From Streptomyces sp. TLI_105 (lineage in GTDB: Bacteria; Actinomycetota; Actinomycetes; Streptomycetales; Streptomycetaceae): a stretch of 64,000 nt of DNA. Positions 3,278 through 39,502 of the stretch are shown piece after piece. The stretch is from contig NZ_FNSM01000001.1 of assembly GCF_900105415.1 (NCBI RefSeq), positions 3,934,501 to 3,998,500 on the forward strand, given 5' to 3'. The notes beneath the pieces are model-generated. The model saw only the letters and a list, made by a program, of their open reading frames with translations, ran no database searches and was not told where the DNA came from. The stretch's first letter is position 1. Every line of letters begins with the position of its first letter. Made by a program: the position numbers and the translations under genes.

Positions 3278-5401
3278 CTACTCGTTCGTGTATTCCTCCA
3301 CAACCGTCGCTCCCAGCTCGCGCACGATCAGATCGTGCCCGGAGAGCGCGGAGTCGACGAGGTCCGGATCGTCCTCCTCCGGGACGTCGTCCTCGGGCGC
3401 CACGGGCTGCGGCGCCGGCGGGGAGTACGCGGGCGCGGGAGCGGGCGGCGGGGCCTGCTGGAACGAGGCGGCCGGAGCGGGCTGCGCCTGTACGGGGGCG
3501 GGCGGCGGGCCCTGCTGGAACGCGGGCGCGGGAGCGGCGGCGGGCGCGGGAGCGGCGGACCGCCCACCCCCGAAACCACCGGCTCCGCTTCCACCGCCGA
3601 AGCCTCCGGTTCCGCCCGAGCCGCCGAAGCCGGTGGCGGCGGGCGGGGGCGCGGAGCCGCCCGAGGGATCGATGATCGCCTCGATCTTCCAGTTCACGTT
3701 GAACTGCTCGGCGAGGGCCTGCTTGAGGACGTCCTCGCTGCCGCTGCTCGCGAAGTTGTCCCGGGCACCGGCGTTGAGGAAGCCGAGCTGGAGCGTCGTG
3801 CCGTCGAACCCCGCCACCTGGGCGTTCTGGCTGAGCAGGATCCAGGTGAAGCGGCGCCGGTTCTTGACGGCGTCGAGGATCTGCGGCCACAGGTTCCGCA
3901 CCTGGGCCGTGTCCCCGCCACCGCCCGCGGCGGCCGGCGGCGGGGCCTGCGGCGCGGACTGCGCCTGCACGGGCGCGGGGGCCGGGACGGAGGGCGCCGC
4001 GGACGCGCCGGGCCAGGCGCCGGGCGCGCCGCCGCCGGGGGCGGCGGCACCCGGCCAGGCACCGGGCCGGGCCGCGGCGGGCTGCTCCTGCACGGGCGCG
4101 GGGGCCGGCGGCGCGGGCTGCGCCTGGACCGGGGCGGGGGCCGGCGGGGGCGGGGCCATCGGGGTGTGGGCCTCCGGGCCGGGCACGTACGCCATGGCGG
4201 GCGCCGGAGGTCCGGGCGTGAAGACGGGCGCGGGCGCGGCGGCCGCCCCGCGCTCCAGCCGGTCGAGCCGCGCCTGGAGGGAACGCTCGTCGTCGAAGGC
4301 GGCGGGCAGCAGCACGCGCGCGCAGATCAGCTCCAGCTGCAGCCGGGGCGAGGTGGCCCCGCGCATCTCGGTCAGTCCCGCGTTGACGAGGTCGGCCGCA
4401 CGGCTCAGCTCGGCCGCACCGAAGACGGAGGCCTGGGCCTGCATGCGCTCGATGACGTCGACGGGGGCGTCGATGAGCCCCTTCTCGGCGGCGTCGGGCA
4501 CGGCGGCGAGGATCACGAGGTCCCGCAGCCGCTCCAGCAGATCGGCGACGAACCGCCGGGGGTCGTTCCCGCCCTCGATGACCCGGTCGACGACCTCGAA
4601 GGCGGCGGCGCCGTCCCCGGCGGCGAACGCGTCGACGACGGAGTCGAGCAGCGACCCGTCCGTGTATCCGAGAAGGGAGGTGGCCATGGAATACGTCACA
4701 CCGTCGTCGGCGGCACCGGCGAGCAGCTGGTCCATCACCGACATCGAGTCACGCACGGACCCGGCGCCGGCGCGGACGACCAGCGGCAGCACCCCGTCCT
4801 CGACGGGAATGCCCTCGCGCCCGCACACCTCGCCGAGGTACTCCCGGAGCGTCCCCGGCGGCACGAGCCGGAAGGGGTAGTGATGGGTCCGCGACCGAAT
4901 GGTCCCGATGACCTTCTCGGGCTCGGTGGTGGCAAAAATGAACTTGAGGTGCTCCGGCGGCTCCTCGACCACCTTCAGGAGGGCGTTGAAGCCCGCCGAG
5001 GTGACCATGTGGGCCTCGTCGATGATGTAGATCTTGTACCGGCTGGAGGCGGGCCCGAAGAAGGCCTTCTCCCGCAGGTCACGGGCGTCGTCCACGCCAC
5101 CATGGGAAGCGGCGTCGATCTCGATGACGTCGATCGACCCCGGCCCGTTCCGCGCGAGGTCCCGACAGGACTGGCACTCACCGCACGGGGTGGGCGTGGG
5201 CCCCTGCTCGCAGTTCAGACACCGCGCGAGGATGCGCGCACTGGTCGTCTTGCCACACCCGCGGGGCCCGCTGAACAGGTACGCGTGATTGACCCGGTTG
5301 TTCCGCAGGGCCTGCTGCAACGGGTCGGTGACATGCTCCTGCCCGATGACCTCGGCGAAGGACTCGGGACGGTAGCGGCGGTACAGCGCGAGAGACGACA
5401 C
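3278..5401 (-). CDS. dnaX: DNA polymerase III subunit gamma/tau
   Basis: Clamp-loader ATPase of the replicative polymerase. It shows the AAA+ order: ALYRRYRPESFAEVIGQ at the N-terminus, Walker A GPRGCGKTTSA, the four-Cys zinc module (CLNCEQ...CGECQSC), DEAH box IIDEAHM, sensor 1 FIFATTEPEKV and sensor 2 GSVRDSMSV. After about residue 390 it turns into a long Pro/Ala/Gln-rich linker with repeated PAPVQAQPA-type units, then a tau-like C-terminal domain and a second Gly/Pro-rich tail. I prefer GTG 5401 (MSSLALYRRY) to ATG 5431; TATAAC lies nine bases before it and no ribosome site is obvious, so the message may be leaderless. purD lies downstream on the same strand. Confidence 0.95.
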   Translation of the reverse strand: MSSLALYRRYRPESFAEVIGQEHVTDPLQQALRNNRVNHAYLFSGPRGCGKTTSARILARCLNCEQGPTPTPCGECQSCRDLARNGPGSIDVIEIDAASHGGVDDARDLREKAFFGPASSRYKIYIIDEAHMVTSAGFNALLKVVEEPPEHLKFIFATTEPEKVIGTIRSRTHHYPFRLVPPGTLREYLGEVCGREGIPVEDGVLPLVVRAGAGSVRDSMSVMDQLLAGAADDGVTYSMATSLLGYTDGSLLDSVVDAFAAGDGAAAFEVVDRVIEGGNDPRRFVADLLERLRDLVILAAVPDAAEKGLIDAPVDVIERMQAQASVFGAAELSRAADLVNAGLTEMRGATSPRLQLELICARVLLPAAFDDERSLQARLDRLERGAAAAPAPVFTPGPPAPAMAYVPGPEAHTPMAPPPPAPAPVQAQPAPPAPAPVQEQPAAARPGAWPGAAAPGGGAPGAWPGASAAPSVPAPAPVQAQSAPQAPPPAAAGGGGDTAQVRNLWPQILDAVKNRRRFTWILLSQNAQVAGFDGTTLQLGFLNAGARDNFASSGSEDVLKQALAEQFNVNWKIEAIIDPSGGSAPPPAATGFGGSGGTGGFGGGSGAGGFGGGRSAAPAPAAAPAPAFQQGPPPAPVQAQPAPAASFQQAPPPAPAPAYSPPAPQPVAPEDDVPEEDDPDLVDSALSGHDLIVRELGATVVEEYTNE

Positions 5402-5458
5402 GTATACGAGGTTATAGGCGCCCACCGACAACCCGGGAAAACGGGAACGGGCGGGAGC

Positions 5459-5551
5459 GGGGGCGCGGGGCGCGACCCGGGGCGCGGGGCGCGGGGCGCG
5501 GACGAGGCGAGGTCAGGGGCGCGGGGCGCGGCGAGGTCAGGGGCGCGGCCC
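5459..5551. repeat. GGGGCGC-type low-complexity repeat
   Basis: Between dnaX and the SRP RNA the sequence is dominated by tandem GGGGCGC units (about eight), with GAGGTCAGGGGCGCGG occurring twice. It encodes nothing I can support. Confidence 0.7.
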
Positions 5552-5564
5552 AGGGAACGCAAGC

Positions 5565-5650
5565 GCCCCCCACGCACCTGCCAGAGCCGACCTACCCTTG
5601 CTGCCTTCCGGCCCTGGGGGAGTTCAGTCAGATAGCACCGCGTGAGGGGC
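5565..5650 (-). ncRNA. ffs: Small signal recognition particle RNA (4.5S-like)
   Basis: On the minus strand the sequence contains the invariant SRP domain IV core, GGGCCGGAAGGCAGCAAGGG, whose GGAA loop binds Ffh. The flanking strands close it: an 11-bp terminal helix pairs 5640-5650 with 5565-5575 (one G-U). Mature ends may lie a few bases further out. It is the RNA part of the particle that targets membrane and secreted proteins co-translationally. Confidence 0.93.
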
Positions 5651-5775
5651 TCCGCCCAGCGTACCCGATCCGAACCCCCACCTGTCCCCCCCCCTCCCCG
5701 ACCTGCACCCCTCACCCACCCCCACGCCGAGATCACGTGCGCGAGCACCCCTTCCGGTCATGTAATGTTCTCCCC

Positions 5776-5863
5776 GGAGGATTCGCCTAGAGGCCTAGGG
5801 CGCACGCTTGGAAAGCGTGTTGGGGGCAACCCCTCACGAGTTCGAATCTCGTATCCTCCGCCA
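5776..5863 (+). tRNA. tRNA-Ser (anticodon GGA)
   Basis: An 88-nt cloverleaf with a long variable arm. The acceptor stem GGAGGAT pairs with ATCCTCC, the anticodon loop TTGGAAA is closed by CACGC/GCGTG, and the T-loop is TTCGAAT. Discriminator G and CCA are encoded (5860-5863). It reads serine codons UCC/UCU. The accessory island at 5.9-13.5 kb starts just 3' of it, the usual place for integrase-mediated insertion, though I see no integrase or second att copy. Confidence 0.97.
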
Positions 5864-5887
5864 TTGCTCTCACCGGGCAATTCGTTG

Positions 5888-5917
5888 AAGGGCCCCACCG
5901 TTCGCGGTGGGGCCCTT
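5888..5917 (+). terminator. Hairpin terminator after tRNA-Ser
   Basis: A perfect 13-bp stem (AAGGGCCCCACCG with its complement) closes a TTCG tetraloop and is followed by a short T-containing stretch. It can serve the tRNA and, on the other strand, the convergent gene ending at 5943. Confidence 0.8.
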
Positions 5918-5942
5918 CGACGTACATGGTTACAGTTCCCGT

Positions 5943-7205
5943 CTACCGCCCGTTGAGGACGGCCCGGCAGACGTTGCAGTACATAGCCGCGTTCTGCCCG
6001 TAACGCCGCATCATCTGGCTGCAGCCGACGCACAGCCCAAGCTCCCATGGCGGGCAGCCCAGCGCCGCGGAGGCGGCGGCGCGTTCTACGGCGGTGATCC
6101 GCATCGAGTCGCGGGAGCGCTGGACCGGCATACGAGGAAGCGTGAAGCCGCCCGTCGGCTGATCGAGATCGCGGACGGGACGCCTGTCACTGATGAACCA
6201 GCCCTCCTCACCCGCTCGGCAGCTGCGGTCGATCTCCTGCTCGGCGAAGGTGATCACGTCGTCCTCCTCTTCGGCCGGAGCCATCGGAAGAGGGACCCTC
6301 TCGCCGATGAGCTCCTGCCAAAGCGTGCGATCGTCGGCCGAGACCCACATGTGCCGACCGGCGCGGCCGCTTCTTCGGTTGGGCACGTAGACCGGGACGC
6401 TCTCGCCCGTAGCGCTCTGCAGGACCAGGTCCTCGATGTGGACGGGCTCACGTTGAGGGAGGCACAGCGCGGGCACGAACCAGTCCGCGTGAATCGCGCC
6501 ACAGTGGCCGGCGCCTTCGCTGAAGAGGCAGTGTCGCTCGCTACTCGGAACGCACTTCCAGACTTCGAGGTGCCGGTACCCGCCACGGATCACCATCTCC
6601 TTGCCGTCGGCGATGTCCTTCCACGGCATGTCGTCCACGCGCGCCCAGGGAGCCCGGTCAATCAGGGAAGCCGTCCGGTCCTTCGCCACCCAGAGCGGCG
6701 TGATGCCGTGCTCCACGGCGTTGACCGAGCGCCGGTGCACGCTGCTGGGACTGAGGTGGTGGTACTGGATCTCCCAGCCGATCCGTATGCCGCCGGGCCC
6801 GACGACGACGGCGTCCGAGACGCTGCGCCGGCTGCCCATGGGAACCTCGGCTTCGGCATCCAGGCCGTACCGCCCGGCGGTCTCGACGATCCGCTCCTTG
6901 GTGGCCTTGTGCTGGGCGCTCTCCGCCGGCGTCGCCTTGTGCGTAATCGGAAGATGCGAGGCGACGAGCGGCCGCCGACCGCCTACGCGCCCTCGGCGGA
7001 TGAACATCCAGGGCGACTTGCCACCCGATTCCGACAGGCACTCGCGTTTCTCGTGGTGCGCCAGGCATTCAAGCAGCTGCGGATCGCGCTCGGAGACGCT
7101 GGCGGTGATCTCCTGGAGCAGATCGGGTCGGTCCGGGTGACCGAGGTCGGGCAGGGACAGATTGATCTCTATGCCATATCCGGTGTGCCACACCCCATTT
7201 GCCAT
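5943..7205 (-). CDS. CoiA-like nuclease-fold protein with C-terminal zinc ribbon
   Basis: A 420-residue protein with the core of the competence protein CoiA family, a restriction-endonuclease-like fold. Asp131 (RRSVSDAVVV) is followed by Glu145-x-Gln147 in GWEIQYHHLS, matching the D...ExQ active site of that family. The C-terminus has a zinc ribbon, Cys392-x2-Cys395 and Cys410-x2-Cys413. Start ATG 7205 has GGTGGAGA upstream. A nuclease acting on DNA is the family expectation; its substrate here is unknown. It is divergent from the kinase-helicase gene and sits between a tRNA and a defence-like pair, so I infer an accessory or defence role rather than natural competence. Codon choice is less extreme than in neighbouring core genes, suggesting transfer. 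Confidence 0.65.
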   Translation of the reverse strand: MANGVWHTGYGIEINLSLPDLGHPDRPDLLQEITASVSERDPQLLECLAHHEKRECLSESGGKSPWMFIRRGRVGGRRPLVASHLPITHKATPAESAQHKATKERIVETAGRYGLDAEAEVPMGSRRSVSDAVVVGPGGIRIGWEIQYHHLSPSSVHRRSVNAVEHGITPLWVAKDRTASLIDRAPWARVDDMPWKDIADGKEMVIRGGYRHLEVWKCVPSSERHCLFSEGAGHCGAIHADWFVPALCLPQREPVHIEDLVLQSATGESVPVYVPNRRSGRAGRHMWVSADDRTLWQELIGERVPLPMAPAEEEDDVITFAEQEIDRSCRAGEEGWFISDRRPVRDLDQPTGGFTLPRMPVQRSRDSMRITAVERAAASAALGCPPWELGLCVGCSQMMRRYGQNAAMYCNVCRAVLNGR

Positions 7206-7418
7206 TTCTCCACCATAAGAAGAACCACTGGTGCTCCAACAGGGCGCATGGTCAGAGGCGTTGGCAGCAGTTGCCCTGCACTACCGAATCGCCGGGGGTA
7301 TCGAGCGGGCCGAAGGGACCGTCGAACTCCCGGGTGGGCAAGGGCTCCGCAACAGCCTGCCTCGATCCCATCCGAGTTGTGCGTGCGCATGTCTGAAACC
7401 AGCCTCAGTGGTTCCGCG

Positions 7419-7438
7419 AGCGTGAGTAGGATCACGCT
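7419..7438. promoter_or_regulatory. Inverted repeat, possible operator
   Basis: AGCGTGA-N6-TCACGCT is a perfect 7-bp inverted repeat about 75 bp upstream of the kinase-helicase start. It is too short to be a typical terminator and is a candidate repressor site. Confidence 0.4.
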
Positions 7439-7446
7439 TCACCCGC

Positions 7447-7464
7447 GCGGCCAGGTAGGGCCGC
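7447..7464. promoter_or_regulatory. Second inverted repeat, possible operator
   Basis: GCGGCC-AGGTAG-GGCCGC is a perfect 6-bp inverted repeat with the same 6-nt spacer as the neighbouring repeat at 7419, about 27 bp away centre to centre. Confidence 0.35.
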
Positions 7465-7509
7465 CCGCAGTGTCTACTCACCCGCTCCCCAGCTCGCGAA
7501 GGTGGATGG

Positions 7510-10500
7510 ATGACGGCTCCCACAATCGGGACGTTGCTTCTGCAGAACAGGTACGAAATCACCGCGGGTCCGCACACAGGTGATGGCGAATCCCAGGTCT
7601 GGGAGGCTTTCAGCGACGGCTACACGTACCTGCTCAAGACGTGGACGTACGAGGGTGAGCAACCGGACAGGGTGCAGCGCGCCCTCTGGGACCACGAACT
7701 GCGCACCCTGTACAAGATCGCGAGCAGTCCCAGGGCAGACGACGCCCTGGTCGTGCTGAAGGACGCCGGCCTCGACCGGGGACACAACTGCTTCGTCATG
7801 GTCCTGGAGGCGCCGGGCTACGAGCGCGTCGCCACCGCGCTACGACGCCGGGCACGCTACCCCTGGCTCTCGAACCGCGGGACAGCCGCCCGCGAACAGT
7901 TGTGGAACGGCTTACGGCGTGTCGCCACAGGGCTGAACCTGCTGCACGAGCGACAGGTCCTGCACCGGGGCGTGGACCTCGACTCCCTCTTCTTCGACGA
8001 GGACCTCGGTGCCGAGTCCCTGCGACTCGGCGGCTTCGAGTGGTCCGTCAAACTGGGCCGTCCGGTGGGGACCCAGCCCCCTGTCGGCTGGCCGGTTCCA
8101 CCGGAGCGCACCACTGGGGGCGTGACTGCCTGGCGTCAGGACGACGACTGGTTCGCCTTCGGCATCCTCTGCGCACGGCTGCTCCTCGACCTTGAACGCT
8201 TCACCACCAATCCCCCGCCCGAGCGTCACGCACGGGTGCTCAAGACCATCGACACCGCCAAGACCGAGCTGACCGAGGTCGAACGCAAGCTGCTGCTGGA
8301 CCTCGTCGCCGAAGACCCGCTGGAGCGCCTGACCGCGCCATACGACATCATTGGCCGGATCCAGGACATTACGCGGGCCCTGGCGAACCCCCTGCGCACC
8401 CAGCAGGAAGATGCCCAGTACGTCCTGGCCCTCGATCTGCGGCGGCCGGAGTTCATCGATCACCTGATGGACAGCGGGCTACGCGACCACCTGCGCCTCG
8501 ATCCAATGGGGACCTTCATCCCCGGGGACCCGATCCACCGGAAGGAGGCCTGCGAGTTCGTCCGCCAGGACCTGCAGAAGCCCCTTCTGTACGCCGTCCC
8601 CAACAGGCCGTACTTCATCCTCGTCGGCGGCAGGCTCAGCCTGAGGATCACGCCGCACCGGGGGAAGGACGGCACGTCCAGCTGGCAGGTCGCGGACTGC
8701 CGGTCCGCCCAGCCGCTGCTCTACAGCGAGGGCGACGACAGCTTCCGCGAACTCCCACCCGGCCGCGTGTTCGCCTATGCCAGGGACGAGGTGGCCCGCG
8801 ACCGTACGATCGCGCAGAACGCCACGTCGTGGGAGCTCGCGCTACCGAAGATCGATCGCAGTGCCCAGGTCTCGCGCGAGCTCGGCCGCTTCCACGAGTT
8901 CGTCCGCGTGAGCAATCAGATCGAGCTGCTCCTCCTCGACTCGCAGATCTTCCCGTACGAAGTCGTCCGCGCCCCGTGGCAGGAGGACGGCGTGGAGCGG
9001 GCCGTGGTCAAGGAGCGCGCGCGCCCCGAAGGACACGAGATCTTCGAGCCGTTCCGCGTCGACCTCATCGACTTCCTGCAGAAGGAGGTACGGGGCAGCG
9101 ACCGCAAGGTGATCCTGTCGGGAGCCCGCGACGGCGCCCGCCTCAAGCTCCCGCCCCGGGACCCCCAGTCCGACGACGACGGCAACGTGTGGCAGGTCGA
9201 CGACATGGACCAGGCAACCGAGTGCATCACCCTCAGCCGCCCGGGCCTGAGCAAGGGTCGGGTGAAGCTGGAGAAGGAGGGGTTCCTCCGCAGCGCTGGC
9301 ATGCCCGGGCAGATCAGTCTGTTCCGGCGTCGCAAGAAGGCCATCGACGCCCTCGACCAGCACGGATACCTCCTGCGCTCGCTGGCCACCCCGAGCCACG
9401 TCCGCATGGACACCGGCGCCTCCGAGCTTCCCGTCGAACTCGACCACGAACGGGTCGACGAGCCCAAGCGGGCCAGCATCGAGGACATCCTGCGGGTTCG
9501 ACCCATCTACACGCTGCAAGGGCCGCCCGGCACGGGCAAGACCACCCTCGTCGCCTGGCTGCTGCGCGAGATCATCACCGAGGATCCCGTCGTCCAGGTG
9601 CTGGTCACGGCCCAGGCCCACGGAGCCGTCGACGTGCTCAGGGCGAAGGTGGGCGAGGCGTTCCAGGACGTACCCGAGGCCGACAGGCCGCTACAGATCC
9701 GGCTGCGGGGTCCGCACAAGGCCGGAACCACCCTGCCGGAGGATGGCGTCGAGGGCGTGGCCAGGACGGTGCTCCAGCGCAGCATCTCCCAGCTCGAAGC
9801 CATGAGTTCGCCCAGCGAGGTGCAGCTCGCCTGGCTGGACGACGCGAAGGCCATGGTCAGCGAGATCAACATGATGCAGGAGCGGGGGGACCTCGGCCCC
9901 CGTTCGTCAGACTTCGTCGAGCTGGTCAAACGCGGCGCGAACCTCACGTACTGCACCACCAGCGCTGGCGACCTGGTCGCCCTCGCCGCTGGTCAGGCGT
10001 TCGACTGGTCGATCGTCGAGGAGGCGGGCAAGGCGCACGCGTTCGACCTCGCGCTGCCACTGCAGGCAGGTCATCGCTGGCTGCTGATCGGTGACCACAA
10101 GCAGCTGGATCCCTACCGGTACGAGGACTACCACAAGGGGATCGACAAGCTGGACCCGGTGGCTCACATCCTCAGCCGCCTCAAACCACGGGCTTCCGGC
10201 ATGCTCGACCAGGAATGGCTCGACTCGTGGGAGCGCCGCAGCCAGCCGGACCGGGACGAGTTCCGCGAGTACTCCAAGGAATGGCTGAAGACCTTCCACC
10301 GTCTGTACGAGTACTGCGCCGTGGCCACGGGTGCGGACCGTCTCGTCACCGACACGGAGGCGAAGGGAGCGTCTGCGGGGCAGTTGATCGGCCAGCACCG
10401 CATGCACCCGGACATCGGCCGGCTGATCTCCGAGGCTTACTACCAGGGGCGGTTGATGAACCGCACCCTGGACAAGCAAGGCGAACCGGTCGAGCGGGTG

Positions 10501-11151
10501 CGTCACGGATTCCACACCCCGAGCGGCCTTCGTGACCGTGCCGTGGTCTGGCTCGACGTGCCGTGGTGCCGCGACGATGCCACCACTCATGAGGTAGGTC
10601 CGAACAGCGGCCAGTCGAAGTACACCAATCCTTCGGAGGCGCGCGCGCTCGCCAACTTCCTGCAGACCCTCGGACCGGACGGCGGGTGTCAGGGCAAGCT
10701 CGCGGTGCTGGCGCCGTACTCACGGCAGGTGAGCCTGCTCAGCAAGCAGTTGCGGGACACGCCCCTCCCCGCCGGACTGCAGGTCCAGCTGGGTCTCAAG
10801 GCCGAAGCGGACAACAGCAACCGGTTCCCCGCCCACACGGTCGACTCCTTCCAGGGCAACCAGGCGGACGTCGTCGCCATCAGCCTGGTCCGCAACAACG
10901 AGAAGGAGATCGGTCACGGCCTGGGATTCCTCGACGACCCGGGCCGGATGAACGTGCTCCTCTCGCGGGCTGAGCGCCTGCTGATCCTCGTAGGGTCCTG
11001 GGACTTCTTCCTCCACCAGGTGCAGGCAGTACGCCTCGAAGACGAGTCCCAACCCCTGTGGTCCTTCAAGAAGATCGTCACCCTGCTCGACGAATGGTTC
11101 CTGGATGGCAGGGCTCTACGTATCCCGGCTGACCTCAGGGAGCACTCGTGA
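7510..11151 (+). CDS. Pseudokinase-SF1 helicase fusion (MkoA-like, type I Mokosh candidate)
   Basis: A 1213-residue two-part protein. Residues about 15-280 look like a Ser/Thr kinase domain: beta-3 Lys43 is kept (TYLLKTW), but the catalytic HRD is His152-Arg-Gly and the DFG is Gly174-Gly-Phe, so it is probably a pseudokinase. Residues about 640-1190 form a DNA2/UPF1-type SF1 helicase: Walker A GPPGTGKT at 671-678, Walker B VEEAGK near 837, GDHKQLDP at 861-868, IGQHRMHP, TVDSFQGNQADVV near 1110 and RMNVLLSRAE near 1147. Kinase-helicase followed by a PLD-type partner is the described architecture of type I Mokosh anti-phage systems, thought to act on phage nucleic acid. The next gene overlaps by 4 bp. 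Family assignment of each domain is firm; the Mokosh call is an inference from architecture. Confidence 0.75.
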   Translation: MTAPTIGTLLLQNRYEITAGPHTGDGESQVWEAFSDGYTYLLKTWTYEGEQPDRVQRALWDHELRTLYKIASSPRADDALVVLKDAGLDRGHNCFVMVLEAPGYERVATALRRRARYPWLSNRGTAAREQLWNGLRRVATGLNLLHERQVLHRGVDLDSLFFDEDLGAESLRLGGFEWSVKLGRPVGTQPPVGWPVPPERTTGGVTAWRQDDDWFAFGILCARLLLDLERFTTNPPPERHARVLKTIDTAKTELTEVERKLLLDLVAEDPLERLTAPYDIIGRIQDITRALANPLRTQQEDAQYVLALDLRRPEFIDHLMDSGLRDHLRLDPMGTFIPGDPIHRKEACEFVRQDLQKPLLYAVPNRPYFILVGGRLSLRITPHRGKDGTSSWQVADCRSAQPLLYSEGDDSFRELPPGRVFAYARDEVARDRTIAQNATSWELALPKIDRSAQVSRELGRFHEFVRVSNQIELLLLDSQIFPYEVVRAPWQEDGVERAVVKERARPEGHEIFEPFRVDLIDFLQKEVRGSDRKVILSGARDGARLKLPPRDPQSDDDGNVWQVDDMDQATECITLSRPGLSKGRVKLEKEGFLRSAGMPGQISLFRRRKKAIDALDQHGYLLRSLATPSHVRMDTGASELPVELDHERVDEPKRASIEDILRVRPIYTLQGPPGTGKTTLVAWLLREIITEDPVVQVLVTAQAHGAVDVLRAKVGEAFQDVPEADRPLQIRLRGPHKAGTTLPEDGVEGVARTVLQRSISQLEAMSSPSEVQLAWLDDAKAMVSEINMMQERGDLGPRSSDFVELVKRGANLTYCTTSAGDLVALAAGQAFDWSIVEEAGKAHAFDLALPLQAGHRWLLIGDHKQLDPYRYEDYHKGIDKLDPVAHILSRLKPRASGMLDQEWLDSWERRSQPDRDEFREYSKEWLKTFHRLYEYCAVATGADRLVTDTEAKGASAGQLIGQHRMHPDIGRLISEAYYQGRLMNRTLDKQGEPVERVRHGFHTPSGLRDRAVVWLDVPWCRDDATTHEVGPNSGQSKYTNPSEARALANFLQTLGPDGGCQGKLAVLAPYSRQVSLLSKQLRDTPLPAGLQVQLGLKAEADNSNRFPAHTVDSFQGNQADVVAISLVRNNEKEIGHGLGFLDDPGRMNVLLSRAERLLILVGSWDFFLHQVQAVRLEDESQPLWSFKKIVTLLDEWFLDGRALRIPADLREHS

Positions 11152-12806
11152 TCGTCCTCGTACCCGTGAGCATGTTCAGCGTCAACTTCAGCGTGGCCCG
11201 GGGCCGCCCGTACAGCCGTCTGGAGCGGCGGGTTCTGGAGGAGATCGCCGCACAGGCAGGTGTCGCCCCCGACCAAGGCGCGACCCTGACCTCTCTGTGC
11301 GACACCTTCCGCGTCCACGAACGGCTGATGGTCGAAGCCGTGGTGACCCTGGTCGGTGCGGGATGGGTCGCCGTCACCAGCGGCCGGGAGGCCACTTTCG
11401 TCCTCACCGACGAAGGGCAGCAGGCATGCTTGTCCGGCAAGGACCCGGCATCGGTCGTCGTGGCCCCTGCCGCGCCCTGCACCGTGGTTCTCGATCGCAC
11501 GGCAGGACAGCTGGCCAGGCGAGGTGAAGTGCTGACCGTCTCGAAGCAAGAGGCACGGCCGGACCTCAACCCGTCCACGCCCTTGCGCATCGTGCGCAAC
11601 GCACTGGACGAGTCCCAGATCCAGAAGCTACTGCCCCGAAATAGCGGCGAGTGGGTGCGCAGCATCGGACGGCCCCGGCTCGTGACGGTCGACCGTTTCC
11701 TCCCCGTGCGCGTCGACCTCGTCGACCGGTTCATCGCGGGGCTCCCGCGGGGCTGGCACCAGGCTCTGTCGGCCGAGATCCTGGCGGTGGCACAGGCCAG
11801 GAGGGAGGAGTTGGAGAGCGCCCCGGACGTCCAGCCGGCGCCACAGGCGATTGCCGTGAAGGTGGCGCCTCCGGTACAGGCCCAGGTGCCGGCCACCGGC
11901 CCCGGGCGCCGGCCGACACCGCTGAGCATCCCCGGGCGGAAGCCTCCGGCCGCCGCGCTCGGTGCCGCAGCGGCACCCCGGACAAGTGTCTCCTTCCCAT
12001 GGCTTTATGACGCCGAGCCATTCGACAGCAGCGATGACAGTCCTACAGACCAGTCGACCGAAGCGGCCCTGTTCTCGGATGTGTCCGGTGAGGAGGCCCA
12101 CCAACTCGTGCTCGCCGAGGCACTGGCCAAGGCGGCGAGCCACGTCCTGATCGCCTCACCCACGGTGAATATGGAGAGCCTGTCAAAGCTCGGCGACGTC
12201 ATCCAGGCTGCGGTGGCGCGCGGGGTGCGGGTGGACGTCCTCTACGGCGACACGGAAGAGGGAACCAACCCACAGGACATCGTCGACCTGCTGCACCGGA
12301 CCGGCTACCACGCCGCAGAACGGCTGGGCAGGGATCTCCTGAAGCCAGCGAAAGAACGGACGGGCAGCGGTGCGAGCCTCCTGATCTTCGACGGGAGGGA
12401 CGGAGCGCTCGAAGCGGTCATCGGCAACTACGCCTGGGTTGGGTCACCCGGCTCGGCGCGGGCACACTCCGCCCACATGGGCGGAACGGAGTTCATGGCC
12501 CAAGTGGCACGAGCAGCTGCAGGTCTGTGGACGTGGAGCGGTGATCCGGATTCCGCCGACCGCTGGCGGCACGTGGCGGACCGCTGCCAGGACGAAACCG
12601 CCGTCTCCGAAGCCCGGGGCGACCGTTTGAAGGATCAAGTCCACGCCGAACTGCTCGTGGACGACGAGCATGCACGGGCCGCGCAGGGCTCCGACGACGG
12701 TGCTCTGCGGGTTGGCGGCGCTCGCCGACACGAGAGTGGGTTCACTGCAGGCTTCCGCGGAATCTCGGCGGTGATCCGGCGCCCGGATACCTCGACCACA
12801 CCGTAA
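11148..12806 (+). CDS. Winged-helix/PLD-like partner protein (MkoB-like candidate)
   Basis: GTG 11148 overlaps the upstream stop as GTGA, so translation is coupled to the helicase gene. Residues about 20-95 look like a winged helix. Residues 225-270 are a Pro/Ala linker. Residues about 320-440 resemble one phospholipase D half: ASHVLIASPTV, RGVRVDVLYGD, then SLLIFDG and EAVIGNYAWVGSP. In that half the HxK position reads SGAS, so it is not catalytic. A second half would be expected to supply HxKx4D; the best match is HAELLVDD near residue 504, with Glu for Lys, and the chain ends about 50 residues later. The protein may therefore be C-terminally truncated or inactive. It is the likely effector partner of the helicase. 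Confidence 0.55.
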   Translation: MIVLVPVSMFSVNFSVARGRPYSRLERRVLEEIAAQAGVAPDQGATLTSLCDTFRVHERLMVEAVVTLVGAGWVAVTSGREATFVLTDEGQQACLSGKDPASVVVAPAAPCTVVLDRTAGQLARRGEVLTVSKQEARPDLNPSTPLRIVRNALDESQIQKLLPRNSGEWVRSIGRPRLVTVDRFLPVRVDLVDRFIAGLPRGWHQALSAEILAVAQARREELESAPDVQPAPQAIAVKVAPPVQAQVPATGPGRRPTPLSIPGRKPPAAALGAAAAPRTSVSFPWLYDAEPFDSSDDSPTDQSTEAALFSDVSGEEAHQLVLAEALAKAASHVLIASPTVNMESLSKLGDVIQAAVARGVRVDVLYGDTEEGTNPQDIVDLLHRTGYHAAERLGRDLLKPAKERTGSGASLLIFDGRDGALEAVIGNYAWVGSPGSARAHSAHMGGTEFMAQVARAAAGLWTWSGDPDSADRWRHVADRCQDETAVSEARGDRLKDQVHAELLVDDEHARAAQGSDDGALRVGGARRHESGFTAGFRGISAVIRRPDTSTTP

Positions 12807-12914
12807 GGGTGGTCTCCGGCGTCGCTGTGCCGTCACGGAGGCGTTGGGGCTCCTCACGAAGGGCGGCGAGCACGCGAAGTGGCGGGAAGCCCTGGGAACT
12901 GATCTCCCCCTATG

Positions 12915-12944
12915 GAGGGTGCCGGAAGGAAATCCGGCACCCTC
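12915..12944. terminator. Strong bidirectional hairpin after the kinase-helicase/PLD pair
   Basis: A perfect 12-bp stem (GAGGGTGCCGGA and its complement) with a 6-nt AGGAAA loop, 109 bp after the partner gene's stop. It marks the end of the defence-like operon and also lies beyond the minus-strand remnant that runs toward it. Confidence 0.75.
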
Positions 12945-12971
12945 ACGGGTACGGCTTTGGCTCGTCCTACA

Positions 12972-13193
12972 TCACCACTCGTCGGTGTCGCCGTACTTCC
13001 CCACTTCCCCGGGTTCTGGGCGCGGCCCACAGCCTGTGTACAAGCCTCGGCGAAGGCAGCCGCCACGGCGGTCTTATCCGTGCCTTGTACCTGGGCCTCG
13101 ACCTGCGGCGATGCTCACGCCCCCGGCGATGGCACCGGTCTTGAGCCGCTGTTGGCGCGCAGCCGAGACCCGCCGCTTCCGTGCCACCGCCAT
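12972..13193 (-). pseudogene. Frameshifted small basic protein remnant
   Basis: ATG 13193 has a good ribosome site (AAAGGGAAGGGC) overlapping the stop of the fragment upstream. The first part reads MAVARKRRVS and GAIAGGVSIAAG; good codon use then moves to another frame (VEAQVQGTDKTAVAAAF, EACTQAVGRAQ), then returns to the first frame for GEVGKYGDTDEW before TGA 12972. This looks like a small gene with two compensating frame disruptions or a decayed copy. I do not recognise the family. Confidence 0.35.
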
Positions 13194-13203
13194 GCCCTTC
13201 CCT

Positions 13204-13440
13204 TTACTTCTCATACGGGCAGGGGCGGTACTCGGCGTACAGCTGGTCCGCAGTCATGCCAGCGCGGGTGACCTCCTTCGCCTGGTTCCACATGTCGACC
13301 TCGGTGCGGCGCATGCCCTCCAGGAGCCCGCGGTGGCGCATCAGGGTCTGCGGGGCCTCGACCTTCTCGTCGATCGGCAGGCCGCGGATCCGACGCGCGA
13401 CAGAACGCCGGGTTCGGGCACCCCGACTGCCGGCTATTGA
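13204..13440 (-). pseudogene. Truncated accessory gene fragment
   Basis: The minus strand reads cleanly with Streptomyces codon bias through PIDEKVEAPQTLMRHR, GLLEGMRRTEVDMWNQAKEV and TADQLYAEYRPCPYEK to TAA. I see no credible start: the frame upstream dissolves into sequence overlapping the promoter of the secreted-protein gene. I infer the 3' part of a gene cut off at about 13.44 kb, possibly at the island edge. Function unknown. Confidence 0.4.
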
Positions 13441-13641
13441 CCTCGAACGCCGCACCCTGCCTTGTCCGAGCCCTGGGGGAGGACCCGGAAGGCTGATGAG
13501 GGGGCGGGGAGGGGCTCGTTCACCGGATCGGGGGGTGATCGGAGGGAGGGACGTTCCTGCTCCGACCTGCGTGTAGTGATGCAGATACTTTCTGTGATGA
13601 CCAGTCGATGACCAGTCGGCACGATCAAGCAGGGGACATCC

Positions 13642-14055
13642 ATGAGGAAGTTGGCGGCAGTGGCGGGGGCTGTGGGGTTGTTCGTCGGAGGAGTGGGGGT
13701 GGCGGCGGCCGACTCGTGGCACGGCGTAGGGCTTTTCAAGACGACCGGAGCGGAATTCGCGGAAGGAACGTACAAGTGGGAGCCCGCCGAAGTGCAGCAG
13801 GGTGCATTCCACATCAAGGGTGAGCTGCGCGACATCGGCCTCAACGACAACCACAACGTCTACCTGCTGGTAAAGGTGCACGGCTACGGGTGGAATCGCT
13901 TCGACGGCGTACAGAAGAAGGACGTCTGGATCGACAAGCTCGTCCACGACGGCGCCAGCCGGTACACGAACACGGCGGAGGTACGCGTGTGCCAGAACCG
14001 CGGCTCCCTGCACCCTGACAACTGCTCTCCGACGAAGTCCTTCAAGCGCAAGTAG
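13642..14055 (+). CDS. Secreted small protein of unknown function
   Basis: A 137-residue protein with a clear Sec signal peptide: MRK, a hydrophobic run to about residue 20, then GVAAA-D as a plausible cleavage site. The mature part is about 114 residues, rich in Lys, Asn and Tyr, and has exactly two cysteines (CQNR and NCSP), likely a disulfide. AGGGGA lies upstream of ATG 13642. It is followed after 64 bp by the ABC exporter genes and may be linked to them. I do not recognise the family. Confidence 0.75.
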   Translation: MRKLAAVAGAVGLFVGGVGVAAADSWHGVGLFKTTGAEFAEGTYKWEPAEVQQGAFHIKGELRDIGLNDNHNVYLLVKVHGYGWNRFDGVQKKDVWIDKLVHDGASRYTNTAEVRVCQNRGSLHPDNCSPTKSFKRK

Positions 14056-14794: not shown

Positions 14795-17046
14795 ACGCCT
14801 TCGTCCTCGGCATGCGTCTGCTGTGGGGAAGTGGCCGCAGGGCTCGGGTCCGCTTCCTCCTGATGGCGCTCGGATCCGCACTCGGGGTCGCCTGCCTGGC
14901 CGCCGCACTCACCATTCCGGCGATCATCGCCGCCAATGACGCTCGGGTGACGAGTCGCGCCATTTCCTCGGGCGCGAACAAGAATGCCGTCTACCAGGAG
15001 TTCCTGGACCCTTACGGCTCCCAACCACTGCGGCGCGTCTTCATCGGTCACAGAGGTGTCGGCCCACTGCCCGTTCCTCCGGGAATCAAGGCACTCCCCC
15101 GTGCGGGCGAAGCAATCGTTTCGCCGAAGCTGGGCGAGATCCTGGCAGCCCATCCCCGCGCCGCAGGACTTGTGCCCGGTCGCGTGATCGGCACCATTTC
15201 GCCGGAGGGGTTGGGCGGGCCGGACGAGCTGTACGCCTACATCGGCACCGACGCCGATGAACTGAGCGGGGCGACATCACTCGGCCACTTCGGCGACACG
15301 TACGCGCGGCATGAGGTCATCGATCCCTCCACCCTGGACATCCTGCGGTTCACTCTCGGCTGCATCGTGTTGCTCCCGCTCGTCATCTTCCTCTCCGTCT
15401 GCGCCCGGCTCTCCGGGGAATCACGTGCGCGTCGCCTCGCCGCACTCCGGCTCGTCGGCCTCAGCGTGCGGGACACCCTGCGGGTCAATGCCGGAGAGAG
15501 CGTGGTCGCCGCCTTCGTCGGGGCTGTGGTCGGGCTCATCGGCTATCTCGGGATCAATGAAGTCATGGCGTGGGTCGGGCTGCCCGGCTTGCGCTGGTAC
15601 CCGGCCGATGGGCGGCCGGACGGGACGACCATCGCCGTGTGTCTGCTGGGGTGCCCGGCCCTCGCCTGGGTCGTGGGGCAGTTCAGTGCACGGCGAGCGG
15701 CCCAGTCACCCATCAGCGTGCGCCGGACCGGCGAGCGCAAGCCTCCGAAGAAGTACGGGACGCTGCTGCTGATCCCCGGGCTCGGAATCATCAGCGGATA
15801 CTGCCTGCTCGACGCGATGGGACGGAACCCGTCAGGCGGATCGGCCGGCGCCGTGCTGGTTCCCGGCGCTGTGCTGATGACCGGGGCAGGGCTCGTGTTC
15901 GGCCTGGCACCGATCACGGCATGGCTCTCTCGTCGCCTGGCGGGAATGTCGCAATCGCTGCCACTGTCGCTCGCCATGCGGCGCACGGAGGTCGACCCGG
16001 GGAGCGCCCTGCGGGTGGTCACCGGGCTCGTACTGCTGGTATTCGGCGCCTCGCTCACGCAGGGGGTGCTCATCGAGTTGGATCAGGTCAGTCGGCGAAC
16101 GGCCCCGGTCCAGGAGTACAGCCTTCCGGCAGCAGAGCTGAGTATGCGACAGCGCGCAGAGATGACCACATTGAGGGGAGTGCAGGCCCATGGCCTGGCC
16201 GCCCAGTCATGGGTGGGCAGCCTGGAGGGGAAGCCCTCCAGCGTCCAAGCAGTCTTTGCTACATGCGCTCAATTGGCTGCCTTCACTGAGACAACGCATG
16301 GATGCATCGACAATAAGGTGCTAAGGATTACGGATCCCACGTTCCCCGTTGATGAGGATGCCCGTCCCGGCAGCAACTTCCCGTTCCTGCTCAGCAACGG
16401 GCGGAAACTGCGCGTCTCCCTGCCCCAAGAAGCTGTAACGGTTCGGACATACCAACCCTCAGAGTTCGGCGGACCAAGCCTCCTCATCCCCCCCTCACTG
16501 CTCCCCCAAGGCACCCAGCTCGCAGACGCCCACTTCGTTCTCGTCAGTCCTTCCGACCCCTCCACCATCCGCTCCGTCCTCGACGGCATCGGGGCCATCG
16601 CCCCCACCGTTTCCGTCGAGCCCGTGGGGATCGTCATCGACTCGCTCGCTCAGTTGACCGTCATCCGGAGTCTGCTGGTCGTCGGGATGGTGCTCGGGCT
16701 GGTGATCGGGGTGGCCGCGTTCGTCGTGTCCGTGGCTGATCGGGCCATGGAGCGGCGTGGGCAGGTCACCGCGCTTGTCTTGTTGGGGGCTCGGGCGGGG
16801 ACGTTGCGGGTGGTGCAGGTGGTGCAGGTGGTGTTGCCGTTGGTGGTGGGGTTGGGGGCCGCCATCGTCACCGGGTGGCTCGCCGAGTCCAGTTACCTGA
16901 TCACCGGAGGAGGGGACGTGCACTGGGACTGGGACGGGTTGCCCTTGTTGTTCGCCTCCGCGCTGGGGGTCGTGCTCGCCGCCGCGGTCGCCTCCGTTCC
17001 CATGGTGCGGCGGCACATCGATCCCGAGCACATTCGGCGCGATTAG
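14791..17046 (+). CDS. FtsX-like ABC transporter permease
   Basis: A 751-residue membrane protein starting at GTG 14791 inside the ATPase stop. There is one helix at about residues 20-45, a roughly 130-residue outer domain, and a block of helices from about 185 to 430. A second outer domain (about 435-625) and three C-terminal helices (about 630-745) follow. This duplicated FtsX layout is common in Streptomyces exporters. Around 16250-16340 codon use is less GC-biased (ACA, AAT, ATT), in the variable second outer domain. It probably forms the channel for the ATPase upstream. Confidence 0.88.
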   Translation: MNAFVLGMRLLWGSGRRARVRFLLMALGSALGVACLAAALTIPAIIAANDARVTSRAISSGANKNAVYQEFLDPYGSQPLRRVFIGHRGVGPLPVPPGIKALPRAGEAIVSPKLGEILAAHPRAAGLVPGRVIGTISPEGLGGPDELYAYIGTDADELSGATSLGHFGDTYARHEVIDPSTLDILRFTLGCIVLLPLVIFLSVCARLSGESRARRLAALRLVGLSVRDTLRVNAGESVVAAFVGAVVGLIGYLGINEVMAWVGLPGLRWYPADGRPDGTTIAVCLLGCPALAWVVGQFSARRAAQSPISVRRTGERKPPKKYGTLLLIPGLGIISGYCLLDAMGRNPSGGSAGAVLVPGAVLMTGAGLVFGLAPITAWLSRRLAGMSQSLPLSLAMRRTEVDPGSALRVVTGLVLLVFGASLTQGVLIELDQVSRRTAPVQEYSLPAAELSMRQRAEMTTLRGVQAHGLAAQSWVGSLEGKPSSVQAVFATCAQLAAFTETTHGCIDNKVLRITDPTFPVDEDARPGSNFPFLLSNGRKLRVSLPQEAVTVRTYQPSEFGGPSLLIPPSLLPQGTQLADAHFVLVSPSDPSTIRSVLDGIGAIAPTVSVEPVGIVIDSLAQLTVIRSLLVVGMVLGLVIGVAAFVVSVADRAMERRGQVTALVLLGARAGTLRVVQVVQVVLPLVVGLGAAIVTGWLAESSYLITGGGDVHWDWDGLPLLFASALGVVLAAAVASVPMVRRHIDPEHIRRD

Positions 17047-17101
17047 TTTTCGAGGCATCGGCGGTCTTCTCTTCAGTCGTCCACAGACCGAGGAGAACAC
17101 C

Positions 17102-17311
17102 GTGCCCGAGAACGCCGTCAAAGGTCCCGCCAGCTACTTCCCCTCCATCGAGAAGAAGTACGGGCGGCCCGTCTCCGAGTGGCTCGAGGTCGTCCGGGCC
17201 TCGCCGCTCACCAAGCACATGGAGCTCGTCTCCTGGCTGAAGGCCGAGTACGGGCTGGGCCACGGGCACGCGAACGCGCTCGTGGCCCATGTCCGTGCCG
17301 GCGGGTGGTAA
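17102..17311 (+). CDS. DUF4287 small protein
   Basis: GTG 17102 has GAGGAGAA upstream. The 69-residue protein reads PASYFPSIEKKYGRPVSEW near the N-terminus and YGLGHGHANALVAH near the end, typical of the DUF4287 family of small actinobacterial proteins. Function is not established. Its stop is 1 bp from the stop of the convergent MFS gene. Confidence 0.85.
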   Translation: MPENAVKGPASYFPSIEKKYGRPVSEWLEVVRASPLTKHMELVSWLKAEYGLGHGHANALVAHVRAGGW

Positions 17312-17312
17312 T

Positions 17313-18566
17313 TCATGCCGCCAGGGTGTGGGTCTTCGTACGGGCTTCCACCCGGGTGCGCAGGGACAGGGTGGTCGCCGCCGTGGCCGTTCCCGCCACC
17401 AGTGCCGTCCACCACAGCGCCGACGGGCTCAGGGTCGTGTAGGTCGTCACTCCCAGGGTGAGGGCCCCGAAGCGGGCCACTCCCCAGGTCCAGCTGAAAG
17501 CGCCCTGGTAGCGGCCGCGGGCGTGCGCCGGGGCCAGGTTGGCGAAGATGCCGGCCGCGATGCCCGCCACGACGACCTCACCGAGCGACCAGACGATGAC
17601 GGACAGCGTGTAGCCGGCGACGCTGTCGGCCAGGCCGGTCAGTGCGACGCCCACCGCGATCAGCCCGCTGCCCGCGCTCTGCACCGCCAGCTGCGGGAGC
17701 CGCGCCAGCCACGCGGTCGCGAAGGGCTGCAGCGCGACGACCATGATCGCGTTGACGGCCGCCATCGCCCCGTACACCGCCGGCGAGAGGCCGCTGTCGC
17801 GGACGGCGAGCGGGAGCGCGACCTCGGTCAGCGAGTACACGAAGAGCTGGACGCCGAAGAGGGGAAGCAGGAGCAGGGCCAGGCGGTCCCGGAAGACCAC
17901 TCCGTAGCCGATGCCGTCCTTCGCCGGCCCGGTCGGGGCCGAGCGCTGCGGCTCCCGCAGGCGGATCGCCACCACCGCCGCGTACAGCAGCATCGAGCCC
18001 GCGTCGACCGCGAACAGCAGCCAGTACCCCTGCGCCGCGAGGTAGCCGCCCAGGACTCCCGCCACGGCGGTGCCGATGTTCACGCCCCAGCCGAAGAGCG
18101 CGTACGCACGCTGCCGCCGTTCGCTGTCCACGGCGTCGGCCAGCAGGGCGTACGCCGCCGGGGAGACCGTGCTGCCGGCCGCGCTGATCAGCAGCGCCGA
18201 CCCCGCCATCGTCCACACCCCCGGCGCCAGGAAGAGCGCTCCCTGCGCCGCCGCCGCGCCGATCAGGCCGATCAGCATCGTGGGGCGACGGCCGATGCGG
18301 TCGGCGAGGATGCCGCCCACCGCGGGGCCGATCAGGTTGCCCGCTCCGAGCGCGCCGAGCACGTACGAGGTGTCCCCGCCGGTCACTCCCCGCGAGGCGA
18401 GGAAGAAGACCAGGAACGGCGTGACGAGGTAGCCGAGACGGTTGACGATCGTTCCCGCGAAGATCGTCCAGACCGTCGACGGGAGGCCCTTGAAGGCCGA
18501 GTCGGAGGGAGAGGGGGTGTGTTCGGGGGTGGGGGCCGCTGTGGAGGTGCTGGGCGTTCGAGGCAT
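17313..18566 (-). CDS. MFS transporter, probable drug efflux
   Basis: A 417-residue, 12-helix major facilitator. After a Ser/Thr/Pro-rich N-tail it shows FAGTIVNRLGYLVTPFLVFF and the loop 2-3 motif GGILADRIGRRPTMLIGL. It is divergent from an ArsR-type regulator over an 86-bp shared promoter region, so it is the likely target of that regulator. Substrate unknown. Confidence 0.88.
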   Translation of the reverse strand: MPRTPSTSTAAPTPEHTPSPSDSAFKGLPSTVWTIFAGTIVNRLGYLVTPFLVFFLASRGVTGGDTSYVLGALGAGNLIGPAVGGILADRIGRRPTMLIGLIGAAAAQGALFLAPGVWTMAGSALLISAAGSTVSPAAYALLADAVDSERRQRAYALFGWGVNIGTAVAGVLGGYLAAQGYWLLFAVDAGSMLLYAAVVAIRLREPQRSAPTGPAKDGIGYGVVFRDRLALLLLPLFGVQLFVYSLTEVALPLAVRDSGLSPAVYGAMAAVNAIMVVALQPFATAWLARLPQLAVQSAGSGLIAVGVALTGLADSVAGYTLSVIVWSLGEVVVAGIAAGIFANLAPAHARGRYQGAFSWTWGVARFGALTLGVTTYTTLSPSALWWTALVAGTATAATTLSLRTRVEARTKTHTLAA

Positions 18567-18598
18567 GGGAGGAGCGTGCTTCCCCGCCCCCGTCCCCC

Positions 18599-18630
18599 TC
18601 CATTCATTAAGCTCAGACCGAATCCATTCA
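18599..18630. promoter_or_regulatory. Direct repeat in ArsR/MFS intergenic region
   Basis: TCCATTCA occurs at 18599-18606 and 18623-18630, 24 bp apart, just upstream of the regulator's ribosome site. It is a candidate binding site controlling both divergent genes. Confidence 0.35.
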
Positions 18631-18652
18631 CCATCTCCAGGACGTGGAACGC

Positions 18653-19630
18653 ATGGAAGCCGGGCTCAGTTTCTCCGCCGCCGATCTCGCCCAGACCCGT
18701 TTCGCCGTCTCCCCCATGTGGGAGGTCGTCACCAGCTACCGCATCGTCGCCCACCAGCCCGACTCCGCCCCGCACGGGCGCTGGGCCGCCCAGGTGCGGC
18801 CCCGGCTCGTCCGCGCCGGCCTCGACCGCGGCTGGCTCGCCGCGCTGATCCCCGGCCAGGGATACCTCGCCGACTTCCTCAACCCCACGCCCGCCGGGCC
18901 CTTCCCCACCCTCGGCACCGAGCTCGACGCCATCCGCCGCGCCTCCGCCGCGGACGTGCGGGACGACCTCGACTCGCTGGAGAGGAAAGGCGGCCGCGAG
19001 CCCCGGCTCCGGATGCTGCGCGAGGACCCCGAGGCCGTCCTCCCCAAGGTCGCCGACGAGATCGAGACGTACTGGGAGCTCGCCCTCGCCCCCTACTGGG
19101 CCCGCATCCAGAAGGTCCTGGAGGCCGACGTCTTCCACCGGGCGCGGCAGGTCGCCGAGCACGGTTCGGCGCGGGTGCTGAGCGAGCTCCACGAGACCGT
19201 ACGGTGGGACGACGGCACCCTCCGGCTCGTACGGCGGCACTGCGCGCTCACCCGCGACCAGGCCGGCTCCGGGCTGCTGCTCGTCCCCTCCGTCTTCGCC
19301 TGGCCCCGCGTCCTCACCCGGTCCGTCCACCCCGACCCGCCCCAACTCGCGTACCCGGCACGTGGTTTCGGGAGCGTCTGGGAGCCCCGTACCACCGACG
19401 CCACGGACGCCGTCGCCGCCGTCCTCGGCCGCTCCCGCACCCTGCTCCTCACCGAGCTCGACACCCCCGCCTCCACCACCCAGCTCGCCACCCACTGCGG
19501 CATGTCCGCCGCCGGCGTCTCCCAGCACCTCATCGCCCTCCGCAACGCCGGCCTCGTCACCGCCCACCGCAGCGGCCGCTCCGTCCTCTACGCCCGCACC
19601 GCCGTCGCCGACCAACTCCTGCACCCCTAG
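18653..19630 (+). CDS. ArsR-family winged-helix regulator with DUF5937-like N-terminal domain
   Basis: ATG 18653 follows AGGA at 18639; a GTG lies 9 bases further up. The first ~240 residues match the long N-terminal domain found in many Streptomyces ArsR proteins (FAVSPMWEVVTSYRIV). The last ~80 are a winged helix: TTQLATHCGMSAAGVSQHLI as the recognition helix, then RNAGLVTAHRSGRSVLYART. It probably represses the divergent MFS gene. Ligand unknown. Confidence 0.85.
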   Translation: MEAGLSFSAADLAQTRFAVSPMWEVVTSYRIVAHQPDSAPHGRWAAQVRPRLVRAGLDRGWLAALIPGQGYLADFLNPTPAGPFPTLGTELDAIRRASAADVRDDLDSLERKGGREPRLRMLREDPEAVLPKVADEIETYWELALAPYWARIQKVLEADVFHRARQVAEHGSARVLSELHETVRWDDGTLRLVRRHCALTRDQAGSGLLLVPSVFAWPRVLTRSVHPDPPQLAYPARGFGSVWEPRTTDATDAVAAVLGRSRTLLLTELDTPASTTQLATHCGMSAAGVSQHLIALRNAGLVTAHRSGRSVLYARTAVADQLLHP

Positions 19631-19669
19631 CGGTGGCTCCGGGACCGACGCCCTCCTCCGCCCCTTGCC

Positions 19670-19685
19670 TTGGAGTGCACTCCAA
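19670..19685. promoter_or_regulatory. MerR-type palindromic operator
   Basis: TTGGAGTGCACTCCAA is a perfect 16-bp palindrome 17 bp upstream of the aldo/keto reductase start. The form is typical of MerR-family sites. No merR gene is adjacent. Confidence 0.6.
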
Positions 19686-19701
19686 TCCCTAGAGTGCGCG
19701 C

Positions 19702-39409: not shown

Positions 39410-39494
39410 GGTAGCGTGTCCGAGCGGCCGAAGGAGCTCGCCTCGAAAGCGAGTGTGGCGCAAGTCACCGAGGGTTCAAATCCCTCCGCTACCG
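39410..39494 (+). tRNA. tRNA-Ser (anticodon CGA)
   Basis: An 85-nt cloverleaf: acceptor GGTAGCG with CGCTACC, anticodon stem CTCGC/GCGAG around CTCGAAA, variable arm, T-loop TTCAAAT, discriminator G39494. CCA is not encoded. It reads UCG. Confidence 0.97.
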
Positions 39495-39502
39495 CTTCGA
39501 TC

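Follow-up and report, generated by a model that had tools for sequence, protein, structure and literature searches.

Directly downstream of a tRNA-Ser(GGA) gene in Streptomyces sp. TLI_105, within a 64-kb stretch of DNA that we call the window, a gene for a CoiA-like protein stands 304 bp from, and divergent to, two overlapping genes whose products resemble MkoA and MkoB of the defence system Mokosh. The original prediction for this locus placed the tRNA gene, the CoiA-like gene and the coupled helicase and phospholipase D (PLD)-like pair where ARAGORN and the list of open reading frames (ORFs) also put them, and suggested that the three genes might be an expanded variant of Mokosh. This raises the question of which genes belong to the defence unit and what such a unit could do. 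We consider it very likely that the unit consists of two genes only and is cargo of a mobile element to which the CoiA-like gene belongs. Judged by its motifs, the pair is a new Mokosh variant: of its three enzyme-like domains, two are without catalytic residues.

The first gene of the pair (7510-11151, + strand) encodes a MkoA-like protein of 1213 aa with a pseudokinase region (residues 1-300), a linker and a superfamily 1 (SF1) helicase (about 641-1213). The second (11148-12806, + strand), which overlaps the first by 4 bp, encodes a MkoB-like protein of 552 aa with a winged helix (19-99) and a two-lobed PLD fold (301-552). PADLOC model PDLC03920 matched MkoA at 7.9e-246 over positions 7-1107 of 1112, and PDLC03922 matched MkoB at 1.3e-66 over positions 7-480 of 610. 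Both matches bear out the assignment to type I in the original prediction. Pfam identified AAA_11 and AAA_12 in MkoA, with the kinase domain at 29.8 bits, just below the cut-off of 31.7, and gave only weak matches for MkoB (E 0.04-0.24); NCBIfam at its cut-offs named neither these two proteins nor the CoiA-like protein. Although the MkoA profile matched 50 places in the window's genome and also hit 13 of 14 control genomes, almost always by way of kinase domains, its full length was covered at the window locus only, across its own genome and the 14 controls. The MkoB profile found matches at E 0.001 in 60 of 198 genomes of the phylum and in 8 of the 14 controls, and below 1e-20 only at the window locus and in genome G107. 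With these best PADLOC matches by far, two adjacent genes, a kinase-like and SF1 helicase MkoA and a winged-helix and PLD-fold MkoB, the pair is a homologue of Mokosh type I. The original Mokosh paper is reportedly that of Millman et al. (2022).

The helicase and PLD-like parts also weakly match the MkoC model of Mokosh type II, but MkoC is a single fused protein, whereas the window has two genes. A NERD domain, which one passage of PMC10952713 gives as a type I feature, was absent from the pair in a Pfam search up to E 1, and the shorter PADLOC MkoA model suggests that NERD is present in only part of the type I family. A near full-length MkoA relative occurs in 4 of 246 Streptomyces genomes, the window's included; relatives are found on 306 plasmid records, with coverage of at least 80% in 9. 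The genera of the pair's lineage, among the matches listed, are Streptomyces, Kitasatospora, Embleya, Actinacidiphila, Lentzea, Amycolatopsis and Nocardia. At a further locus (L142, 5017-12023), a helicase gene precedes one whose 1097-aa product has two HKD-type motifs; the two may form a further helicase-PLD system.

The window pair differs from canonical Mokosh type I in its active sites. In MkoA, HRG replaces HRD and GFE replaces DFG, so that the kinase catalytic aspartates are absent, in keeping with the original prediction of a pseudokinase. The PLD-like partner named there does have a two-lobed PLD fold, but MkoB has no HKD motif (no match to HxKx4[D/E/N]), which that prediction missed. 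The helicase motifs are intact: Walker A GPPGTGKT, VEEAGKA (the EEAG box), VDSFQGNQ and MNVLLSRAER. We compared 13 further loci of the lineage (L101-L111, L165 and L166), 11 of them from a scan of genome contigs with two short peptide patterns, which is a sample; gene calls in these relatives are our own and based on the G+C content at third codon positions (GC3). With the window included, GFE stands for DFG in all 14 loci; 12 of them lack the HRD aspartate, L110 keeps it, and in L165 the pattern did not match. None of the 13 judgeable MkoB proteins has an HKD motif, that of L110 being cut short, and an HxKx4[D/E] string occurs in just 1 of 74 MkoB relatives from the database, where it lies in a variable C-terminal stretch. 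Eight other Mokosh loci of the genus (L132, L133, L135, L137 and L145-L148), by contrast, retain HRD, DFG and one HKD each, in an MkoB of about 470 aa; the same HKD pattern thus succeeded in all eight. A frameshift hiding the HKD motif at the 3' end of mkoB (the PADLOC profile runs to 610) was considered and rejected: the lineage homologues end alike, and all judgeable ones are without the motif. On this evidence, the kinase and PLD domains of the lineage are, with high probability, both pseudoenzymes.

An intermediate combination was found in Mokosh-like pairs on alphaproteobacterial plasmids (L155-L158; Mesorhizobium, Rhizobium, Methylocystis and Rhodopseudomonas). They share the pseudokinase signature SGFEWS, GFE again taking the place of DFG, and lack the HRD aspartate; the two that were tested match MkoA and MkoB in PADLOC. 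Their MkoB differs in having two HKD motifs, one of which in Methylocystis (L157) has N for D, and the pattern recovered all four loci when D to N was allowed. The PADLOC MkoB model was followed to positions 593-598 of 610 by two of these proteins versus 480 by the window MkoB, which fits the loss of HKD in the window's lineage. In three of the four loci (L156-L158), a convergent gene of about 260 aa, annotated as hypothetical, directly follows mkoB.

In a tree of 23 rows, the window's lineage is monophyletic (support 100/99), and the alphaproteobacterial plasmid pairs are its sister group, the tree being unrooted except by midpoint. Within the lineage, the window, S. hiroshimensis (L107) and S. 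exfoliatus (L101) form one tight clade (98/100). Despite the loss of catalytic residues, purifying selection still acts on the degenerate domains: compared with seven relatives, the ratio of nonsynonymous to synonymous substitution rates (dN/dS) is 0.10-0.19 in the kinase-like region and 0.11-0.18 in the helicase, so that the pseudokinase is constrained as much as the motor. Eight comparisons of MkoB gave 0.08-0.21 for its first half and 0.24-0.35 for the PLD-like half, which is looser yet still constrained.

How the pair came to lie beside the CoiA-like gene can be read from an alignment with a related locus, L065. Window positions 5000-7247 align to L065 in two pieces, and the next match, 12974-13104, corresponds to the 3' end of the integrase gene located after coiA in L065. 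The gap between coiA and integrase gene is 84 bp in L065 versus 5.7 kb in the window, where the inserted segment with the Mokosh-like pair spans 7248..12973. A frameshifted remnant of the tyrosine-integrase 3' end, equivalent to residues 541-591, occupies 12975..13141 (- strand; tblastn with the L065 integrase, a Phage_integrase protein), and by blastn the window from 12970/12974 to 13104 aligns in five loci. The same slot is short in L065 and L072, measures about 1.1 kb in L062, and is filled in L061 (5635-7944) and L071 (9647-12034) by a gene for a SpoIIE/RsbU-type phosphatase, with a HATPase domain by Pfam in the L061 copy, the only one searched. Since its contents differ among L061, L062, L065, L071 and the window, we regard the slot as a place for varying cargo, of which the pair is one load. 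Words of 7-14 bases common to the two flanks (7231-7330 and 12881-13000) were not found, and the insert thus has no transposition signature. A further decayed gene remnant lies at 13216..13374 (- strand; tblastn E 3e-13, with internal gaps, to a 118-aa ORF of S. exfoliatus L101, in which the gene is longer). The decayed genes that the original prediction saw at the end of the block are therefore there, and the terminator that it added did not hold up: the candidate, a perfect 12-bp hairpin at 12915..12944, about 110 bp after MkoB, has no T-run, and a terminator consensus scan of 5700-13700 made no call at that place (three terminator-like sites overall versus 2.4 in shuffles), which leaves a terminator after MkoB unestablished.

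The L065 element itself carries Phage_integrase, DnaB-N, DUF2637, MobC and Relaxase domains by Pfam, from which we infer an integrated mobilizable element. Like other tRNA-integrated mobilizable elements of Streptomyces, it goes with copies of the tRNA 3' end and with integrase, DnaB-like, MobC and relaxase genes; the window differs in retaining only coiA, the cargo and the integrase fragment. The 3' part of the tRNA gene (5776..5863, + strand), from about 5808 to 5863, resembles an att core, and the same sequence is duplicated at island ends in relatives. A second copy lies about 12.4 kb further on in S. exfoliatus and about 11.0 kb further on in S. hiroshimensis, so that in both species coiA and the pair lie on an island flanked by the copies (L101, 8255-20683; L107, 8257-19278). 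No second copy was found within the 64-kb window. In a sample of 61 relatives that included 37 Streptomyces (the window's genome counted), a copy of at least 38 bp on the same contig and no more than 60 kb away was present in 12 of the 37. The tRNA-Ser(GGA) site is thus an integration hotspot, with the pair as its cargo, and the earlier placement of the block at an integration site agrees with both the L065 alignment and these copies. In the S. exfoliatus island, coiA and the pair are accompanied at 15385-20481 by genes for a C5 methyltransferase, Vsr (named by Pfam) and two GIY-YIG proteins, one of them an Eco29kI-type endonuclease; here the tRNA-Ser 3'-end copies enclose a compact defence island. 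In Actinacidiphila rubida (L104), a perfect 40-bp copy (15515-15554) lies about 230 bp past MkoB, at a locus without coiA.

The order before the CoiA-like gene is dnaX, the gene for the small signal recognition particle (SRP) RNA (5556..5654, - strand; Rfam RF00169, 66 bits versus a gathering threshold of 40) and tRNA-Ser(GGA). A strong hairpin directly after the tRNA gene (5883..5922; inverted repeat of 18 nt, 94% complementary) is, like the tRNA 3' end beside it, conserved in many relatives and falls within the att-like blastn matches. A second tRNA-Ser gene in the window, with anticodon CGA, lies at 39410-39495.

The CoiA-like protein (420 aa; 5943-7205, - strand) has the motif order ES..HK, D, ExQ of the CoiA competence nuclease family (PF06054), and its AlphaFold model contains a PD-(D/E)XK core, with D131, E145 and Q147 retained; the nuclease fold proposed originally was therefore supported. 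1xmx, Can2 and McrC are PD-(D/E)XK nucleases. Unlike CoiA proper, it stays below the Pfam cut-off for CoiA_nuc (19.0 versus 20.3 bits) and has a long C-terminal part with a Cys/His cluster and a Cys4 motif, and genes of its type are carried by tRNA-integrated elements and plasmids of Streptomyces. Of the profile searches that the original prediction had proposed as a check, those for Mokosh succeeded and that for CoiA fell short of its cut-off. A search of the window's whole genome with PF06054 at E 0.001 gave no match, and PADLOC gave none for the protein; homologues at 43-84% identity carry precomputed PF06054 annotations. Its dN/dS is 0.12-0.18 in six comparisons, and GC3 is 0.85 for this gene, 0.88 for mkoA and 0.81 for mkoB. 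CoiA-like matches, many of them fragments or distant, occur in 62 of 246 Streptomyces genomes; relatives are on 48 plasmid records, 46 of them from Streptomyces, and one Gordonia phage has a weak match. A second, distant match in this genome (35%, residues 13-159) lies at 84598-85002, near one end of its large contig. Encoded just downstream of the integrase, the CoiA-like gene is part of the mobile element and outside the defence unit.

A functional partnership would predict that coiA and the pair occur together. Of 20 fetched coiA loci (L061-L080; 12-19.5 kb each), neither the 12 close nor the 8 more distant ones contain mkoA or mkoB; the 12 closest (L061-L072) have tRNA-Ser(GGA) in seven, five of which also have an integrase or a fragment of one. 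Conversely, at the 13 other loci of the pair's lineage, intact coiA is found next to the pair in two (L101 and L107, with the same trio at the same tRNA), a remnant in one (L105), none in nine, and L165, with an upstream flank of only 85 bp, could not be judged; coiA was sought by tblastn within the flank, which reached 2.6 kb in L110, and a distant homologue could be missed. Across 30 loci of the tRNA site, viewed about 1.5 kb to each side, coiA is beside the tRNA in the window's genome only, and an integrase relative in eight. In strain NBC_01214 (L105, 9538-9823), the pair is found apart from dnaX, and upstream of it are the coiA remnant and 58 bp that repeat the tRNA-Ser 3' end; the block seems to have moved as a unit. 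The idea that the CoiA-like nuclease is the effector, in place of a PLD that has lost its motif, draws on its retained D131, E145 and Q147, on the divergent arrangement in three species and on the remnant that still flanks the pair in L105. Yet MkoB is equally without HKD in the nine lineage loci that have no coiA in their flank, coiA occurs apart from the pair on plasmids as well, and, as the junction shows, coiA was already in place when the pair was inserted next to it. As the loci with intact coiA form a single tight clade, the juxtaposition may have occurred once and spread later; this is the simplest reading, and we therefore do not count coiA as a component. A three-gene system was rejected on the separate occurrence of coiA and pair and on the insertion junction, the former being what the original prediction itself had named as evidence against it, and we regard it as very unlikely. 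Nor did blastp clustering around 11 loci, which would miss unlike proteins, reveal a recurrent third gene that could replace PLD: only integrases (four genes, three loci) and HTH regulators (three loci) recur with the pair.

Three further explanations concern the pair itself. It could be an ordinary Mokosh whose active sites have moved or been misread and which acts as kinase and PLD nuclease, as the strong profile matches, over nearly the whole MkoA model, and the kept PLD fold would allow; the invariant GFE and the absence of HKD across the lineage, set against the success of the same pattern in canonical and alphaproteobacterial loci, make this unlikely. That the pair is decaying and has lost its function is even less probable: the adjacent integrase is a fragment, MkoA is split by frame in L105 and into two ORFs in L110 and L111, and dN/dS is higher in the PLD-like half, but both window ORFs are intact, all dN/dS values obtained lie well below 1, and the lineage extends, among the matches listed, over several genera from Streptomyces to Nocardia. 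Alternatively, with its winged helix and pseudo-PLD, the pair might serve the mobile element or host regulation in the manner of TrmB-like DNA-binding proteins. The top Foldseek row for MkoB is the archaeal chromatin protein TrmBL2 and Regulator_TrmB is among its weak Pfam matches (E 0.24), yet the helicase motor of MkoA and the conserved two-gene organisation match Mokosh, and the S. exfoliatus island holds the pair together with the Eco29kI-type endonuclease, C5 methyltransferase and Vsr genes; we think this improbable. Some observations weigh against our own interpretation of a two-gene, doubly inactive cassette. L110, whose record is a Bacillota bin by title and may be misbinned, retains the HRD aspartate, and some pseudokinases retain activity. 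Intact coiA adjoins the pair at one site in three species, and its remnant went with the pair to another site in L105, which indicates some linkage. Evolution is faster in the PLD-like half than elsewhere in the pair, and the function of this half may be weakening. Finally, three integrase queries found no relative in L101 or L107, and with no integrase detected in L101 the intact islands may now represent an element family other than that of L065.

We propose that a mobile element integrated at tRNA-Ser(GGA) received a two-gene Mokosh-like cassette in the space separating its CoiA-like gene from its integrase gene, and that the latter would later have decayed to a fragment. A passage of PMC11291487 describes Mokosh as a degrader of viral transcripts whose nuclease part is PLD, and a passage of PMC10013915 does so for type II. 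Because the kinase-like and PLD-like domains of this lineage are probable pseudoenzymes, the helicase motor would be the active part here, with the N-terminal pseudokinase and the winged-helix/pseudo-PLD subunit as presumed sensing, binding or scaffolding modules. The helicase might block or remodel phage nucleic acid, RNA or DNA, or pass it to a host nuclease, and would not cut through MkoB. Taken loosely together, cargo, two-gene unit, pseudoenzymes and helicase-centred defence form the explanation that we favour on balance; defence centred on the helicase, as predicted from motifs, is its more tentative part. With similar reserve, we suggest a stable actinobacterial Mokosh lineage with both enzymes dead, defending by helicase alone with sensor or scaffold modules, or through an unlinked host nuclease. 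In the open-access literature searched, we found no account of a catalytically dead Mokosh or of CoiA-like genes in Streptomyces elements, which is weak evidence of novelty, since most subscription papers and all preprints lie outside it.

For the Streptomyces tRNA-Ser site, our data imply a place in which to seek defence cargo, and also a warning that gene adjacency there poorly predicts functional partnership. With its folds kept, both catalytic centres lost and selection still acting, such a lineage makes the role of the kinase and PLD parts directly testable, and canonical, pseudokinase-only and double-pseudoenzyme pairs could be compared in one assay. If a helicase-only lineage does exist, the supposed PLD effector would be dispensable, and Mokosh could act by a non-nucleolytic route.

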